Below, piece after piece: positions 16,984 to 26,158 of a stretch of 64,000 nt of DNA. The translations under genes and the position numbers were made by a program. Within the stretch, counting starts at the first letter, position 1; each line of letters begins with the position of its first letter. The stretch is from Nitrospira sp. Lineage in GTDB: Bacteria > Nitrospirota > Nitrospiria > Nitrospirales > Nitrospiraceae. Under the pieces are notes generated by a model, which saw only the letters and a list, made by a program, of their open reading frames with translations, had not been told where the DNA came from and ran no database searches. The stretch is taken from positions 1,251,001 through 1,315,000 of the forward strand of contig CP126122.1 in NCBI GenBank assembly GCA_030123565.1, written 5' to 3'.

Positions 16984-18830
<1,847 letters not shown>

Positions 18831-18856
<26 letters not shown>

Positions 18857-19496
18857 GGTGGCTCTCCTTTCGCTCCCCGGTCTTCTGGGCCTCGCGCCAC
18901 TTTCTCGCCGCGACTCGGTTCTGGCAGCGCGGGTGGCAGTATACCTGGTCCCGTCTGATCGCTAAATAGATCTTGGCGCATTCCGGGCAGCGCCGAATGT
19001 AGTCCCCCGACTGGGCCAAGAGGTGTACAAAGCGGTACTCAAACTCTTTCGCCTTGCGTTTCGCGCTCACGAAGATTGTCCCGGTCTCCTCGGAGAAGCT
19101 GCCCGGTGATACTACGACCAGTGTCATCTGAGGAAAGGTGAAGGCGGTGTATCCCTCGTGCCAATAGCGCTCTAACTGTTCCAGGACTGCGGCCTGAATG
19201 TCCTGGGCTTCTTTGCGACTGGGAATGGTCTGGTAATTTTTGGCATTGGGCACTCCTTCTACGCTCCAGCCACTTTCCGGGGCCACCATCCCGCCGTAGC
19301 GTTCCCCCGTCTCATCCACAAAGGCCGCGACTTCAAACGCCACCAGCGTCCACTCTGTCGGTGTCAGGGTCTCTAGCTCCGTTTGCAGGAACTTAAGCAC
19401 CCATCCGACGGCGCCATCCGTCATCGTGCGGATGCGCTCGATGGCTTTTTGGTACTCCTGTTGGAATTCCTGCTCGGCTTTCGCCAGTGCGCTCAT
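18831..19496 (-). CDS. CGNR-like zinc-finger protein of the island
   Basis: 221 residues from the ATG at 19496, which has AAGGAG eight bases upstream; the open frame reaches 19586 but lacks support there. Helical N-terminus (KAEQEFQQEYQKAIERIR), a mixed middle region, and a C-terminal finger: CPECAKIYLAIRRDQVYCHPRCQNRVAARKWR at about residues 165-197. That spacing (C-x2-C, RRDQ, C-x3-C, then a basic tail) is the CGNR/ABATE type of zinc finger found in putative transcription regulators. Paired with the integrase by overlap, it may control integration or excision (inference). Confidence 0.65.
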
Positions 19497-19602
19497 GCCT
19501 TTCGCTCCTTTCTCATGCTGAACCCTCTCCGTATTCCTGATCCCAACACTACTGAAAAAAGTGTCGGGCTGAAGGGTCGTCTTCATCTGAATTTGTTTGG
19601 CA

Positions 19603-19633
19603 AGTGTACCTCCTCACTGCTAATGCCTGTCAA
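19603..19633 (-). promoter_or_regulatory. possible leftward promoter for the zinc-finger/int operon
   Basis: Read on the minus strand, a perfect TTGACA (19628-19633) is followed after 19 bases by TACACT (19603-19608). The spacer is long, so this is tentative. It points toward the gene starting at 19496. Confidence 0.3.
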
Positions 19634-19698
19634 GAGTCATCACGCCTAAAAAATATGAGACGTGATCTCTTCGCAACCATTCTTCCAAGGAGGTGTCC

Positions 19699-19905
19699 AT
19701 GGTCAGTACAAAATTGATCACCATTCGAGAAGCGGCCAACCGGTTAGGGCTCAAGGAGAGCACGATCAGGAAATACATCCTGAAACGGCAGATCGCCTAT
19801 GTGAAGCCGTCCGTACGCGCCGTCCGGATTCCCATCGAGGAACTGGAACGGATTCTGGCTGCCGGGCTGAGGCCTGCCATCCCTCAAGCGGAGGCTGCCC
19901 GATGA
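19699..19905 (+). CDS. excisionase-like HTH protein
   Basis: 68 residues from the ATG at 19699; GGAGG (19688-19692) is six bases upstream. The sequence LITIREAANRLGLKESTIRKYILKRQIAYVKPSVRAVRIPIEELERIL is the MerR/excisionase winged helix: HTH, then a wing with conserved Arg and the closing I-P-x-E-E-L-E-R. Such proteins act as recombination directionality factors or repressors. Its stop overlaps the ATG of the next gene (ATGA), so the two are coupled. Divergent from the int operon. Confidence 0.85.
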   Translation: MVSTKLITIREAANRLGLKESTIRKYILKRQIAYVKPSVRAVRIPIEELERILAAGLRPAIPQAEAAR

Positions 19906-20615
19906 GCCGCTGGAAGGAGTTCCGGCGGGAGCCAGTCGCCGGCGAATGGACGCGAAAGCAGAAACGAGGCTATCACCGTGTAAGGTCGTTGCTGTGGTTC
20001 TGGGAATGCCATCAATTCCAGGTGCTCTGGATCACGCTGTCCACGGCCGAAGGCGGGGATGCGGAGAAGCTGACCTACCATCACAAGCAACTGCGCCAAC
20101 GGATCGAACGGCAACTCGGCTTTCAGGGTTTGGAGTATTACCAGGTCCGGACAGAAGAAGGGCATGGCGTCCTCCATATCTTCTGGGCCTGGCGGGTGCC
20201 GGACGGGGAACGCGCGCGCCGGTTCTGGATCTCGCAGGAATGGCTCTCGTCACAATGGCAGGCCCTCCATGGGGCTCCAGTCGTCTGGATCAAGGCCTAT
20301 CAACCCAGCCACCGTTCGCGGAACCGTCTGAGCCGCTACGTCATCAGCCAATACGTCCAGGATCAATGTGGCTACGTGAACATGTGCTGGTCCTGGAAAC
20401 GGTCGCTTGGCTTTCCCATCAGTCGGCTGTGGGAGGAGATGCGACACCAATGGTCCACCAGGAATGCCTATCGCCGGATCAGAGGCGAGATCGAAATCCC
20501 GAGGATCGTGTTCATCAAGACCTGGGAAGATCTGCTGTCGGGGCATCCGATTTGGTTCAGCGGCACCATTTTGCAATTGGTGTTGGGGAAAGGGCTTGTC
20601 TACCAGGAGGTCTAG
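19902..20615 (+). CDS. possible rolling-circle replication (HUH-type) protein
   Basis: 237 residues, rich in Trp, Arg and Gln, starting MSRWKEFRREPVAGEWTRKQ. Three segments in the right order recall Rep proteins of small replicons: VLWITLST (motif I-like strand), EEGHGVLHIFWAWR (motif II-like, with His-x3-His instead of His-x-His) and RNRLSRYVISQYV (motif III-like, Tyr present, no following Lys). The match is imperfect, so function is tentative. Placement between an excisionase gene and an intergenic block with strong hairpins fits a replicative role in the excised element. Confidence 0.4.
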   Translation: MSRWKEFRREPVAGEWTRKQKRGYHRVRSLLWFWECHQFQVLWITLSTAEGGDAEKLTYHHKQLRQRIERQLGFQGLEYYQVRTEEGHGVLHIFWAWRVPDGERARRFWISQEWLSSQWQALHGAPVVWIKAYQPSHRSRNRLSRYVISQYVQDQCGYVNMCWSWKRSLGFPISRLWEEMRHQWSTRNAYRRIRGEIEIPRIVFIKTWEDLLSGHPIWFSGTILQLVLGKGLVYQEV

Positions 20616-20616
20616 C

Positions 20617-20859
20617 ATGATCTGGCATCGATGCGATTTGAAGCTGCCAAGTCTATTTGGGCCGACCTGTTGCGGACGGGAAGCGAACACCTATGATCGG
20701 GCACGGAAAGCCTGGCTCTGCCCTGAACATACGAAGGAACGGCTGTGTGAGTTCTGCCAATTCGAACGAGCCTGGGTGCGGTTTTGTTATAGGGAGCACG
20801 ATGTCACATGCGAAATCTGGCTCTGTGTGGGGTGTGCGGGGCTTGCCGGGCGACGGTGA
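20617..20859 (+). CDS. small cysteine-rich (zinc-ribbon-like) protein
   Basis: 80 residues from the ATG at 20617, with GGAGG at 20606-20610. Ten cysteines, arranged TCCG, CPEH, CEFC, CY, CEIWLCVGC, suggest two zinc ribbons. It starts right after the stop of the Rep-like gene and is probably made with it. Family not recognised; small ribbon proteins are common partners of replication or regulatory genes on mobile elements. Confidence 0.6.
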   Translation: MIWHRCDLKLPSLFGPTCCGREANTYDRARKAWLCPEHTKERLCEFCQFERAWVRFCYREHDVTCEIWLCVGCAGLAGRR

Positions 20860-21231
20860 GGCCATCAAATCAATCTGTCCCTGTCACCCGTCAGCTATCC
20901 ATCACGGGTGAGAGGGAACGATGCTCCATCCTTGTGGAAGGCGGCGATGCGTCAGCTTGGCCGTCGTTCTGGGTGATTGTTGGTTACACACATAGAGAAG
21001 AGAAGAAGAATACTGAAACCATGGGGAGAGTAGGAACGCAAAGAGTCCGCCCAACGAGGCCGCCCGGCCGTTCCGGACCAATGGACCGGACGGCCGGGGG
21101 GATCGGGGGCGCAGCCCCCGCTTCACTTGATCTATATGGTCAAAGTAGGACGACAGGCTGTAAACTGCTCATCTCGTCGAAATTGAGTAGTTGCTTGAGG
21201 GCATAGGAGATTTGACCTGCAACTTCCTACT
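20860..21231. other. 372-base non-coding block with hairpins, possible origin
   Basis: No gene seen. It holds an inverted repeat CACCCGT/ACGGGTG around 20885-20910, a long imperfect hairpin at 21063-21098 and a perfect GC hairpin at 21104-21120. A purine-rich run (AGAGAAGAGAAGAAGAA) lies at about 20994-21010. The block sits between the Rep-like operon and the large AT-rich gene, and could hold a replication origin, a terminator and the promoter of the large gene. Confidence 0.4.
21063..21120 (+). terminator. tandem strong hairpins
   Basis: First hairpin: 21063-21079 pairs with 21083-21098 across an AAT loop, with one bulged T and one mismatch. Second hairpin: CGGGGGC (21104-21110) pairs perfectly with GCCCCCG (21114-21120) across GCA. 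No T-run follows, so these may be a factor-dependent terminator or an origin structure rather than a classical terminator. Confidence 0.4.
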
Positions 21232-24200
21232 ATGAGCTACTCCTTGCTTGCTATAACGGGTCCTCCAAGGCTCCTCTCAAGGCTTAAGAAGTTCAATAGA
21301 AGAACTACAATTGAGAAGCTCAGTTCTCTACTCACACTCCCAGAACTCCACGCTAATACTCTTAGGGTAGAGCTACTGATCCACTTAGCCTGCCTACATT
21401 GTCACGGTTCCAAAACTCCTTCCCGGTATGAGTTGAAACACTGGCTAAATGTGTGGCTTGGTGCAACACAAGCTGCTCAGTGGGAGGACGCTGTAGAGGA
21501 CACCTTTATCTACAATGTGATGTGGGAGACGGGAAACTTTAGAGTCTTTCAGGGGATATGGGAGGGTAATGGGTTTAATCTGCAGGAAATTTTGGACGCT
21601 ACATTTCTTGGCTACACGCCTCCTGAGTCGGATGAATTAAAGCGATCCGTTTTGGGTTTGTTGAAGCTTAGTGAAGCTATCGTGAGTGGCCCAAATTTTC
21701 ATCGCTGGACTATGGGGAGTGGGCATCCTCACCAAGATATTGAATTGCCCGGCGACGACGAGCTTCAAAGAATGGTAGGCAACGTCTCTTTTAGTGCTGA
21801 AAAGTTGCGTGAGATCGGAATAGATCCGGTGGTTCTTAACCCATTTATTCTTCCTGATATCTCGGCCGGCGAACTTGCAACTCAAGAGCTTGGGCGGTCG
21901 TCTCTCGAGAGTCATCCACTTATCAGTGTTGATGGCTACCTAGTGGTCTGTCTTCCCACCGCTATCAGTGTTGCGATCAGGTTTTACGTTCTGAGATGGC
22001 TTGCAGCTAGAGGATTGCTTCATGGCTTGGAAAGAAAGCTTCGTCTGAAACAGAGTGAATACGTATTCGATGAGTTGCGAATACACGCAGGGTTAGTGGT
22101 TAATCAGGATCACGTTTTCCCGCCAAGAACCAAAGGGCTTCCAGAGTTTGATCAACTGTTAGGAAGGTTTGATGTAGACAAAGTCTGTCACGTCATCGTC
22201 TTGCCAGAATCTCTTGAGGGTGTTGCTAGAGAGGGATTAGTGGCCGAGAGAAACATCCCTGAATTTGGCGAATCGATATCTGCATACATCAGAGTCGTTG
22301 CCGACGACCTTAATCGTCAGTACCCAGGAACGAAGGGTTTAACGCTCTTCATCATCGGCGGCTTGGGTAGAGGGTTTGTGTTTGGCCTGCTCGAGCCTCC
22401 TTCGGATTGGGTAATCAGTGCTTTCAGTGTGGATGCTATAACTCATTTTGTCCGGACTTCTGAGTCTAACCTTTTGAAATTGTGGAAATTGAAAAGGGAA
22501 GAAGAGGCTATCGAAAAGAGTGGAATTACTCTGTTTCATCCATGGGGAGATCTGAATCTTTTTGCATGTTGGAGGGAGCAGGGATACACGCTGATTGCCA
22601 GAGATATGGAGTACCCTGACCAATCAATGTTGAGTGTGGCTCACAATTATGTAGCTTCCCTCCGGGAGAACAATCACAAAGATTATGATTTCCACTCCGT
22701 GATTTTTCACAATGGAGCTTTTAGACGGACCTGTCGGGTAACCCCTCATTCGTATTTTGGGGAGGCGCGGAGGTTGCCGGTTTATTGTGAGGTCGCTAGT
22801 CTCGGGGAAGGGATATTGCGGGGAGCGGTCGAGACTGCAGGCAGGCCTTGGTGGCTGAGTATGGACTCCGATCCGAGGTCGACATCCAAGCATGGTAGAA
22901 AATTTCTGTATGGTTTATGGAACGCTCTCCTTTCGTGGCTGGATAAGCTGGCGCCGGTTCTGGAGCGATACTGCCCTATCTCTTTGGGACCGGTACATAT
23001 AGAGATTACAGTGGAGCAAGTGGATTCTTGGCAGGAACTTAGAGGTCTCACGGCGACAAATTCGTCTGTTCTGTCGCATTCTGTCAGTGGTACCACCGTT
23101 GTTGTACGCGTCCCTAGAGAGTTCCGATCCCAGTTCAATAAGCCGGAAAATATTGCAGAGCGCACCTTGCTAGAAACTGTTGCGCGGGAAGTATTGGTAA
23201 TTGCTAATGGCAGCGCAGCCTCGGAGGCTCCTGAAATAACTGCTCGCGCTATTGTTTCGGAAGTGATGCCCAGTGCCGATATGCGAATGGTGCATTTTTT
23301 TGAGGCGCGAGATCCCGGGGCTCAACTTGCTGGCCAAGGTGTTATCAGTGACCCAAGATTCATTTGCCCAGAGGATCAAACTTTCTGCAAATTAGGAATG
23401 GCTGCACGAATCTGCCCATCTGTTCCCAAGGGCATAGTTTCGGGAGTGTCTGCCTGTCTTAAAGTTTTAAATGCCGGCGTTGACAGACTCTGGGAAGAGA
23501 TCGCGACTCAGCTCCGAGGGGTGAACCGACTGTCCCTTATATCAATGAGTCTCACAAACCATGAATCTTTGTTGCGTGACAGATCTCATTGGGGAGAGAC
23601 CTCGAGAGCCTTAATGGCGATTCATTCGAACTCCACAGATGTGCAGGAAGTTGCGCATAGTCGGGAGATTGATAGGATAAAAGCCGAATTGGCAAACCGT
23701 ATTCTGATTGAAATGAGCATATGTGAAGCGCCTACTATCGGCGGAGCTTCGGCTACATTAGAACTGCTAGATAAATTGTCAGCATGGATCATAACCTTGA
23801 TTGAACTAGCCCAACTGTCAGATGCGATCAAGTACGGCCTTGTTTCTCCTGAATTCAGGATTCGCAACAATGGCTTTATCGAAGGAAACCAGCGCTCTTT
23901 AGCAGAGGTGCTGGATCAGTATGGAAAATCGACTTTCAGGGAGCAGTTTCATCAGAGCGCTGAAAATTACCATGCCAAATATGAGTCGCGTGACTCACAT
24001 GCCAAAATTGTTGAGCATCACACTGCGGCTTTCAAGAATGCTTTTAAGTCCGAATATGGAATGGAAGTTTCAGAGTATTACGATGTGCTAGCAGAACTTT
24101 GGGACTGTGCGACTGAACACTTAAACACTGTAGTAGTGCTTGGTCTCGCAGAGTTGCGTGCCCGCCTCCGTAGCAACAGGAGTCTTTCAGAGGAATCTAT

Positions 24201-24951
24201 CGACCACTTTATTGCAGCATTCGCACTCCATCCAAGGGACAGCTGGGATAGAGTTCCACCCGACTTCGACAAGAAAGATTTTTACCCTTGGAGATATCAG
24301 AGGAGGTTGTCGCTTTCCATGCGACCACTCGTACTAGTGGAATCCTCTGATCCCGGAACATGCATCTATGGCATCCAAACAGTTGGACAAAGTATGGACT
24401 ATGTTCTTGGTCGGATTGAGAACGGATGGTTGGATACTGAATCTGTTAGGTCGGATGCGATGAAGTCGTACATTGGAGTTGTTGCAAATCAAGAAGGTGA
24501 AGCGTTCGAGGCGGAAGTAGCTACCTATTTTCCAAATGATAAGTGGAAAACCCACCAAAGACTTCTACTAAGTAGCCTAGGGGCTCCGGCTGAGCTTGGC
24601 GATATAGATGTTCTGGCGTGGAGGCAGGATGGATTGGGTTTAATCGCAATTGAGTGCAAACGATTAAAACCAGCCCGGACCGTTGGCGAGATAGGGGAGC
24701 AACTTTCAAAATTCAAGGGGGAAGCCCTCGATCGTCTTGCCCGTCATACTAAAAGACTCCACTGGCTAAACGTTAACTCTGAGAGTGTTAGATTGCATTT
24801 AGGTATACCGAAAAGCGATTTCCGCTTTGAGGGCCTTTTGGTGACGAATGTTATTGTGCCCATGCAATACGTTAAAGACCTTCCTATACCTCCGGATAGG
24901 GTTGTTCCACTTGGCAAGCTAGCAGACCTGGTTAAACGTCTTAGTTCCTAG
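21232..24951 (+). CDS. unrecognised 1239-residue protein with C-terminal PD-(D/E)XK nuclease-like domain
   Basis: 1239 residues starting MSYSLLAITGPPRLLSRLKK. I do not recognise the first 1080 residues: mixed alpha/beta, no membrane helix, no Walker motif. The last 150 residues look like a restriction-endonuclease fold: a helix with Glu1093 (GEAFEAEVATYF), then GDIDVLAW with Asp1124/Asp1126, a 14-residue hairpin, and IAIECKR with Glu1141 and Lys1143, i.e. D-x14-E-x-K. This is the Mrr/NERD-like arrangement. The gene is visibly AT-richer than the chromosome. Cargo position in an integrative island and the nuclease motif suggest an anti-invader role (inference). DNA repair or mobile-element maintenance are alternatives. 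Confidence 0.75.
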   Translation: MSYSLLAITGPPRLLSRLKKFNRRTTIEKLSSLLTLPELHANTLRVELLIHLACLHCHGSKTPSRYELKHWLNVWLGATQAAQWEDAVEDTFIYNVMWETGNFRVFQGIWEGNGFNLQEILDATFLGYTPPESDELKRSVLGLLKLSEAIVSGPNFHRWTMGSGHPHQDIELPGDDELQRMVGNVSFSAEKLREIGIDPVVLNPFILPDISAGELATQELGRSSLESHPLISVDGYLVVCLPTAISVAIRFYVLRWLAARGLLHGLERKLRLKQSEYVFDELRIHAGLVVNQDHVFPPRTKGLPEFDQLLGRFDVDKVCHVIVLPESLEGVAREGLVAERNIPEFGESISAYIRVVADDLNRQYPGTKGLTLFIIGGLGRGFVFGLLEPPSDWVISAFSVDAITHFVRTSESNLLKLWKLKREEEAIEKSGITLFHPWGDLNLFACWREQGYTLIARDMEYPDQSMLSVAHNYVASLRENNHKDYDFHSVIFHNGAFRRTCRVTPHSYFGEARRLPVYCEVASLGEGILRGAVETAGRPWWLSMDSDPRSTSKHGRKFLYGLWNALLSWLDKLAPVLERYCPISLGPVHIEITVEQVDSWQELRGLTATNSSVLSHSVSGTTVVVRVPREFRSQFNKPENIAERTLLETVAREVLVIANGSAASEAPEITARAIVSEVMPSADMRMVHFFEARDPGAQLAGQGVISDPRFICPEDQTFCKLGMAARICPSVPKGIVSGVSACLKVLNAGVDRLWEEIATQLRGVNRLSLISMSLTNHESLLRDRSHWGETSRALMAIHSNSTDVQEVAHSREIDRIKAELANRILIEMSICEAPTIGGASATLELLDKLSAWIITLIELAQLSDAIKYGLVSPEFRIRNNGFIEGNQRSLAEVLDQYGKSTFREQFHQSAENYHAKYESRDSHAKIVEHHTAAFKNAFKSEYGMEVSEYYDVLAELWDCATEHLNTVVVLGLAELRARLRSNRSLSEESIDHFIAAFALHPRDSWDRVPPDFDKKDFYPWRYQRRLSLSMRPLVLVESSDPGTCIYGIQTVGQSMDYVLGRIENGWLDTESVRSDAMKSYIGVVANQEGEAFEAEVATYFPNDKWKTHQRLLLSSLGAPAELGDIDVLAWRQDGLGLIAIECKRLKPARTVGEIGEQLSKFKGEALDRLARHTKRLHWLNVNSESVRLHLGIPKSDFRFEGLLVTNVIVPMQYVKDLPIPPDRVVPLGKLADLVKRLSS

Positions 24952-25024
24952 AGGCAGCTATACAAACGATCGCCGGCATCCTGCTTCAAAGCTGGATTTG
25001 CCTTGCACTATTAAACGAAAATCT

Positions 25025-25054
25025 GGTCACGGTTTTGGTCACGGAACCGTGACC
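25025..25054. terminator. perfect 10-bp inverted repeat between convergent genes
   Basis: GGTCACGGTT (25025-25034) and AACCGTGACC (25045-25054) are exact reverse complements around a 10-base loop. The loop contains a further GGTCACGG copy. Location between the convergent 1239-residue gene and the DUF5677-like gene suits a bidirectional terminator, although no T-run follows. An operator is the alternative. Confidence 0.45.
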
Positions 25055-25138
25055 TGTTTCAAGCGGATTTCTGTAACGCGTTCGCGCGGATTGAATTGCT
25101 TGATCCGGAGCCAACTACGCAACAGGAGTGTGAATCGA

Positions 25139-25876
25139 TCACTTCTGAATTTCAGATTTGACTTGCTGGTAAACATTGTCGATATGTTTTCCATAGTCGA
25201 GTGAAAAACCATCATTTACCTGGCTGAGTATGTCGAGCAAGTAAATGCATGAAGTTAGAAACGTTCTCCGAAGATCTTCTGGTGTGGAATCTAAACAGGC
25301 AAGTGATTCATCGTCTAGCCCAAGGTAGGATTTAATTCCTTCAGAACTAGGGTGTGTCACCCTGCAAAACATTTTATATAGAATGTACTGAAAACTCAGG
25401 CCTACTGATTTTGCCATCTTTCGGACGGACATACCCGCCCAGTTATGCTTGTTAGGATAATTTTTCTTAACTCGTTCGTATTCTTTTCGCTCCGAGGTTC
25501 TTTGATCAACGTCTTTTGAGGTAAGGATTTTTTGAATGATGACATCATCGGGATTCTCGCTAACATAATTGCTCAAAAGTTTGTCGAAATCATCGATTTC
25601 GAGGTAAGCATATTCCGTAAATAATGGAACGCGCTTGTCTGGATCATGTCCCACATATTTAAGGTTCAGCAGCAACTCCAGCAGGGATCTAAGAAGGATC
25701 TTTGCGTCTTGTCCATAGCCATGACTGGTAAGCAGAAAAATGCTCTCTACTGTCTTGCTACTTTTCCTTAGGCCATAAAGCAATAGTCCCTGGTGAGGTG
25801 AATTGACGGCATTAATCCTTTTTTCGGTATTGGAGACCAATTCGCTAATTTGAGTTTTTACAGATCCAGTATGCAT
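25139..25876 (-). CDS. DUF5677-like protein (island cargo)
   Basis: 245 residues, AT-rich gene, starting MHTGSVKTQISELVSNTEKR. The helical segment AKILLRSLLELLLNLKYVGHDPDKRV is the hallmark of DUF5677-type proteins (R-x-L-x-E-L-L-x-N-L-x-Y). A later His-containing helix (YKMFCRVTHPSSEG) also matches the family pattern, where a conserved Arg/Glu and a His may form a site. Biochemical role unknown; members are often seen in accessory regions. It converges on the 1239-residue gene and is the last gene before the right end of the island. Confidence 0.6.
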   Translation of the reverse strand: MHTGSVKTQISELVSNTEKRINAVNSPHQGLLLYGLRKSSKTVESIFLLTSHGYGQDAKILLRSLLELLLNLKYVGHDPDKRVPLFTEYAYLEIDDFDKLLSNYVSENPDDVIIQKILTSKDVDQRTSERKEYERVKKNYPNKHNWAGMSVRKMAKSVGLSFQYILYKMFCRVTHPSSEGIKSYLGLDDESLACLDSTPEDLRRTFLTSCIYLLDILSQVNDGFSLDYGKHIDNVYQQVKSEIQK

Positions 25877-25927
25877 AATGAGGGGCTTTCAAGCTCCCTT
25901 GGATTAGGGAGGCAGTAGGGTTCTTTT

Positions 25928-25975
25928 ACTCCCGGTTTTACTCCCGGTTCGCTCCCAGTTTTGCTCCCGATTGCC
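25928..25975 (+). repeat. right arm-type repeats (integrase binding candidate)
   Basis: 25928-25952 is identical to 17747-17771 near the left end. Two further imperfect copies of the CTCCCGGTT unit follow (CTCCCAGTT, CTCCCGATT) up to 25975, giving four units. The array ends about 115 bases before attR. Confidence 0.6.
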
Positions 25976-26022
25976 AGTCCAACCTAATCCTACTTAATCC
26001 CACCTGCAAGGAAGATTTTCGC

Positions 26023-26052
26023 TTGGTTTGGCATTCGTTTAGGCGATACAAT
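26023..26052 (+). promoter_or_regulatory. possible promoter reading out of the island into the DUF748 gene
   Basis: TTGGTT (26023-26028), 18-base spacer, TACAAT (26047-26052), pointing through attR toward the gene at 26159. Without the island this gene would lie 21 bases after the tRNA-Arg CCA. Prediction only. Confidence 0.35.
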
Positions 26053-26089
26053 CACGCTTAATCTTTATTAATATCATTGGCTTCTGGTG

Positions 26090-26137
26090 AGCCTTCTAAG
26101 CTGAGGGTCGCTGGTTCGATTCCAGCCGGGCGCACCA
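26090..26137 (+). repeat. attR: right 48-bp attachment repeat
   Basis: Exact copy of 17653-17700, a partial tRNA-Arg (3' half only). It lacks the 5' acceptor and D arm and cannot form a tRNA. Confidence 0.93.
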
Positions 26138-26158
26138 CGAGCGTCTTTTCATTTGCCC

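Follow-up and report, generated by a model that had tools for sequence, protein, structure and literature searches.

The window, a 64,000-nucleotide stretch of the single-contig genome (4.62 Mb; chromosome GC about 60%) of a Nitrospira bacterium, holds a long open reading frame whose nature we sought to determine: does it encode a new anti-phage system, as an earlier note on this DNA had suggested, or a member of a known one, and what carries it? The frame at 21232-24951 on the plus strand is free of stops over 1239 amino acids, and local GC is 0.43-0.50 at 21-26 kb, compared with about 0.60 in the flanks. The earlier description of a 1239-residue protein in an AT-rich island is thus borne out. 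The broader proposal was right in kind: a large single protein, probably an effector against phage, that ends in a PD-(D/E)XK nuclease and is encoded on an integrated island. The protein and its two parts are as follows:

21232-24951, plus strand: Upx-family protein, 1239 aa (95% of the NF042954 and PDLC02221 profiles covered; 9WUF matched by phmmer, E=1e-95)
21232-24327, plus strand: Upx-specific N-terminal and central region, approximately residues 1-1032 (Foldseek match of the predicted structure of residues 1-1080 to 9WUF)
24328-24948, plus strand: PD-(D/E)XK-like nuclease domain at the C-terminus (residues 1033-1239; model, Foldseek, invariant residues)

Distant kinship with Upx

The protein is a distant, full-length member of Upx, a known single-gene anti-phage defence. 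The NCBIfam profile NF042954, "anti-phage protein Upx", matched residues 13-1215 (profile positions 21-1224 of 1240; E=1.2e-167, 559 bits), and the PADLOC profile PDLC02221, Upx, matched residues 14-1215 (profile positions 40-1251 of 1271; E=2.6e-151, 503 bits). When the PDB was searched with the 1239-aa sequence (phmmer), a single chain was returned, 9wuf_A (1272 aa), over residues 16-1182 (E=1e-95); the family profile recovered the same chain (E=0) and nothing else significant. The chain is named "Restriction endonuclease", and the 9WUF entry, released on 2026-02-11, is titled "Cryo-EM structure of Upx" in the fold library. A literature search found no report of Upx structure or mechanism. 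The earlier statement that the first 1080 residues match nothing does not hold, since the whole length matches the Upx profiles and 9WUF, and the same matches rule out an undescribed system. Upx is said to have been tested against phage by Gao et al. 2020. It is listed as an anti-phage system in PMC10855318, with that study given as the reference.

The window protein shares with Upx the full-length homology, the overall fold, the C-terminal nuclease motif and the stand-alone gene. It differs in its host, a Nitrospiraceae bacterium, in its identity of 22-25% to the reference clade (9WUF, at about 25%, and the Enterobacterales), in its placement in a separate subclade, and in its score. The NCBI equivalog cut-off for NF042954 is 1900 bits; a Xenorhabdus homologue (L034) exceeds it with 2185 bits, whereas the window protein, at 559, lies far below. 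On this score the protein belongs to the broader family as a diverged member and is not a proven equivalog, and, given the low identity as well, its function may have drifted. In the tree, the window protein stands beside a subclade of five loci (L019, L020, L021, L022 and L047; SH-aLRT 88) and apart from the Xenorhabdus/Photorhabdus clade that includes L034.

A single-sequence search of the genome contigs with the 1239-aa protein found no relative. The scan that used a seven-member starting alignment as its query yielded 52 loci in bacteria and archaea, and it found Upx homologues on two viral contigs. Six plasmid records carry homologues; none was found in the phage collection by tblastn. 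Occurrence within the phylum is patchy, with 3 full-length matches among 396 genomes.

Individual homologues showed features of their own. A Pyrinomonadaceae MAG carries tandem Upx-family genes (L052:10094-17469; 1218 and 1238 aa), with the D...E-C-K motifs intact in both. On S. meliloti pHRB800, one of the six plasmid records, the Upx gene is interrupted by IS66-type transposase genes (L006:5444-12301), and the homologues in Paludibacterium and Dehalococcoidia (L064, L066) lie in several frames and are likely pseudogenes or sequencing errors. Two distant homologues (L051, L053) appear to have an extra N-terminal SEC-C-like metal-binding motif (weak matches), which is absent from the window protein.

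Predicted fold and nuclease motif

The structure of residues 1-1080 was predicted with a pLDDT of 89.6 and a pTM of 0.90. Foldseek aligned this part with 9WUF from end to end (E=2.4e-61, TMq 0.83, rmsd 4.9, 1106 columns) and gave no other significant match; weak likenesses to acyl-CoA carboxyltransferases (E at least 0.04, TMq under 0.1) were rejected as not significant. Since residues 1-1080 match 9WUF throughout and nothing else, the model points to an Upx-specific scaffold in which no other enzyme is recognisable.

Residues 1033-1239 were modelled by AlphaFold2 with a pLDDT of 90.7. Here too, 9WUF was the first Foldseek match (E=1.3e-7, TMq 0.64), followed by R2 endonuclease, Bse634I and the CRISPR ancillary nucleases Can2/Card1, and on the strength of these neighbours the domain is predicted to be of the PD-(D/E)XK type. 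Its elements run in the model as helix, strand, strand (D1126), strand (E1141, K1143), helices (K-H-x-x-R) and strand, the order of PD-(D/E)XK folds: D1126 is on one strand, E1141 and K1143 are on the next, and H1172 and R1175 are on the following helix. Positions P229, E827, R1024, P1032, G1123, D1126, L1128, E1141, K1143, H1172 and R1175 are invariant in the aligned near-full-length proteins (52/52). The motif follows the pattern GD-I-D-V-L...E-C/A-K across the 52 homologues, and its counterpart in 9WUF is GDIDLLAW...IECKD. The analysis thus shows a nuclease fold with an invariant D/E/K catalytic triad. Of the motif first read from the sequence (E, D-x14-E-x-K), D1126, E1141 and K1143 thus stand in every homologue, but the upstream Glu varies.

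The earlier note had described this nuclease as Mrr/NERD-like. The D...E-x-K order and the PD-(D/E)XK fold agree with that description, but membership of either family is rejected: Mrr_cat (PF04471) scored 12.1 bits against a gathering cut-off of 21, and the NERD profile weakly matches one homologue only. No Pfam family scored above its cut-off for the 1239-aa protein. A GapS1 match (E=0.18) was disregarded. The window protein resembles Mrr_cat, NERD, Can2/Card1 and Bse634I in this fold and residue order, and the resemblance is confined to its C-terminal ~200 residues; no cyclic-nucleotide-binding CARF domain was seen.

The carrier element and its relatives

The upx gene is cargo of a mobile element integrated at tRNA-Arg(TCT), as evidenced by an integrase, att repeats and an empty site. 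The element measures 8437 bp from one 51-bp direct repeat to the other (17653-17703 and 26090-26140); the two repeats are 98% identical. At the empty site in a relative (genome G141, locus L101), where the flank is 93% identical, a DUF748 gene follows directly after tRNA-Arg. The features of the element, beyond upx itself, are:

17624-17700, plus strand: tRNA-Arg(TCT), target of the insertion and whole at the left-hand end (ARAGORN, Rfam)
17653-17703, plus strand: attL, 51-bp direct repeat within the 3' portion of tRNA-Arg (98% identical to 26090-26140)
17651-18856, minus strand: tyrosine recombinase (integrase), 401 aa (PF00589, E=5.7e-30; phrog_1, E=5.5e-69)
17747-17771, plus strand: inner repeat of 25 bp, ACTCCCGGTTTTACTCCCGGTTCGC, which may serve as an arm site for the integrase (100% copy at 25928-25952)
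18831-19586, minus strand: backbone protein, 251 aa, C-terminally Cys-rich, with a weak CGNR zinc-finger match (sub-threshold PF11706; conserved in sister elements)
19693-19905, plus strand: small helix-turn-helix-like protein, AlpA/excisionase-like by inspection only (93-99% conserved in sister elements)
19902-20615, plus strand: 237-aa Rep-like protein at the core of this family of elements (pRKU1 Rep likeness; genus-wide copies)
20617-20859, plus strand: small protein of 80 aa, Cys-rich and zinc-ribbon-like (conservation of 84-95% among sister elements)
25139-25876, minus strand: 245-aa DUF5677 protein, its gene convergent with upx (PF18928, E=1.6e-26)
25928-25952, plus strand: 25-bp inner repeat, second copy (identical to 17747-17771)
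26090-26140, plus strand: attR, 51-bp direct repeat that closes the element on the right (repeat; empty site in L101)

The sole cargo of this element is upx and the DUF5677 gene. Its Rep-like protein is 26% identical over 157 aa to Rep of the Thermotoga mini-plasmid pRKU1 (846 bp).

Element copies were inspected in loci L093-L099 and L114-L133 and in the window (17653-26140). The same backbone occupies the same tRNA in six congeners, with integrases 92-95% and Rep-like proteins 96-99.6% identical. Sister elements lack upx. Their cargo, for the most part defence-like, includes an ATPase of the AAA_13 type (PDC-S06), a DUF3644 protein (PDC-S19) alongside a RES-domain protein, a DUF4062 protein with Abi_alpha, a reverse transcriptase of the DRT UG14 type (E=6e-198) and an ATPase that is KAP/PifA-like. 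In one sister element (L095:9844-14970), a 1344-aa P-loop ATPase adjoins a 317-aa DUF5677-like protein (weak match), a possible defence pair.

Twenty further copies have integrases 31-56% identical to that of the window and lie at other targets: tRNA-Arg TCG, tRNA-Cys or tRNA-Gln, or a place where no tRNA was found. Where both ends were captured, end repeats of 33-48 bp are present in most cases. Their cargo includes SIR2, OLD/AriA-like, AAA with DUF4276, and RelA/SpoT proteins, alongside response-regulator-like and fructose-bisphosphatase genes. The product of one sister cargo gene (L127:8727-11783) is 1019 aa long, bears a RelA/SpoT domain and weakly matches PDC-S33. A search of the 396 phylum genomes with the Rep-like protein gave ~40 near-full-length copies, which for the most part agree at 96-100% identity. 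With fragments counted as well, the matches fall in 17 genomes of the genus and in two further genera of the family; a single genome has as many as six, and the host genome has three.

As cargo of an integrated element, the Upx protein might serve the element, for example in its maintenance or in the exclusion of rivals, and not host defence. We consider this quite improbable: sister elements do without upx, and homologues are found in many unrelated settings (chromosomes, plasmids, restriction-modification loci). On balance, we favour the view that the copies form an undescribed family of small integrative elements, with a near-identical HTH/Rep/zinc-ribbon core and integrase-specific targets, for which upx is interchangeable cargo. 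Since the cargo is often a phage-defence gene, the platform would spread and reshuffle defence genes within the genus. A literature search found no description of the family, which is weak evidence of novelty. Like tycheposons, phage satellites and other small tRNA-integrated elements, these elements combine a tyrosine recombinase, a tRNA target and swappable cargo. Unlike those, they have a core of a pRKU1-like Rep and small zinc/HTH proteins, which is 96-100% identical in most copies although these use at least four other integrase types; among the genes of the element inspected, none was recognised as coding for a capsid. The carrier family is the more novel part of the locus, more so than the Upx protein, and deserves a look of its own.

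Gene neighbours and mode of action

In the survey of 59 Upx loci, the only recurrent neighbours of note were type I restriction-modification genes (L019, L020, L025, L063, L035) and integrases. No neighbour family occurred in more than 5 of the 59 loci, and among 92 neighbours each Pfam family was seen in 3 at most. The lack of a conserved neighbour fits a one-gene system, that is, a stand-alone gene without an obligate partner.

The earlier note had pointed to the DUF5677-like gene as a possible partner, with which upx would form one system. They do make up all the cargo of the window element, and the weak DUF5677 match in L095 likewise stands beside a cargo gene, here an ATPase. However, upx and the DUF5677 gene are convergent, with 187 bp between their stop codons, and BLASTP, by which divergent members could be missed, found no DUF5677 relative beside the 58 other Upx loci. 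The L095 match itself ties the family to other cargo. The DUF5677 gene, the sole copy in the host genome, is best regarded as separate cargo; its partnership with upx is not supported, and a two-gene system is highly improbable.

We consider it likely that the window protein acts as a distant Upx whose ~1030-residue, Upx-specific scaffold restrains the C-terminal nuclease. The scaffold would probably sense an infection-linked signal and keep the enzyme in check until that signal appears. The PD-(D/E)XK nuclease (D1126/E1141/K1143), probably metal-dependent, would then cut nucleic acid, most likely invading DNA. The outcome would be a direct attack on the phage, not cell suicide. A role in defence is supported by the neighbours of Upx genes, which include type I restriction-modification, GajA/OLD-type ATPase, Fic and Schlafen-type genes (HipA proteins are encoded nearby as well), by the sister cargo (DRT UG14, KAP/PifA, Abi_alpha, SIR2, AAA, OLD-like), and by the patchy occurrence in 3 of 396 phylum genomes.

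Two other outcomes of nuclease release were weighed. If the released nuclease also degraded host DNA or RNA, the infected cell would be killed or arrested. Such abortive infection is possible, if somewhat doubtful. Large gated-nuclease proteins often work so, and Can2/Card1, which are triggered by signal nucleotides, are in the Foldseek list of the nuclease domain. Nevertheless, the locus has no toxin-antitoxin layout and no partner gene, and the table of a Pseudomonas survey, which is given without mechanistic data, places Upx under nuclease activity/nucleic-acid degradation and not under abortive infection (PMC10855318).

Alternatively, the protein could be a restriction-like enzyme that attacks any incoming DNA without a host mark, plasmids included. 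The depositors' name for the 9WUF chain, the type II enzyme Bse634I among the fold matches, and the four homologues that lie within or adjoin type I restriction-modification gene sets (L019, L020, L025, L063) speak for this reading. It is nonetheless unlikely, as no conserved methyltransferase accompanies Upx genes and there is none in the window element.

The window protein extends the range of Upx to the nitrite-oxidiser family Nitrospiraceae. The 52 aligned homologues from bacteria and archaea give an invariant set, E827, R1024, P1032, G1123, D1126, E1141, K1143, H1172 and R1175, and the Upx mechanism is thus directly testable by mutation. Since the carrier element collects defence genes, the other cargo of its relatives, namely the DUF3644 gene, the ATPase with DUF5677, DUF4062 with Abi_alpha, and the RelA/SpoT protein, are candidate defence genes.
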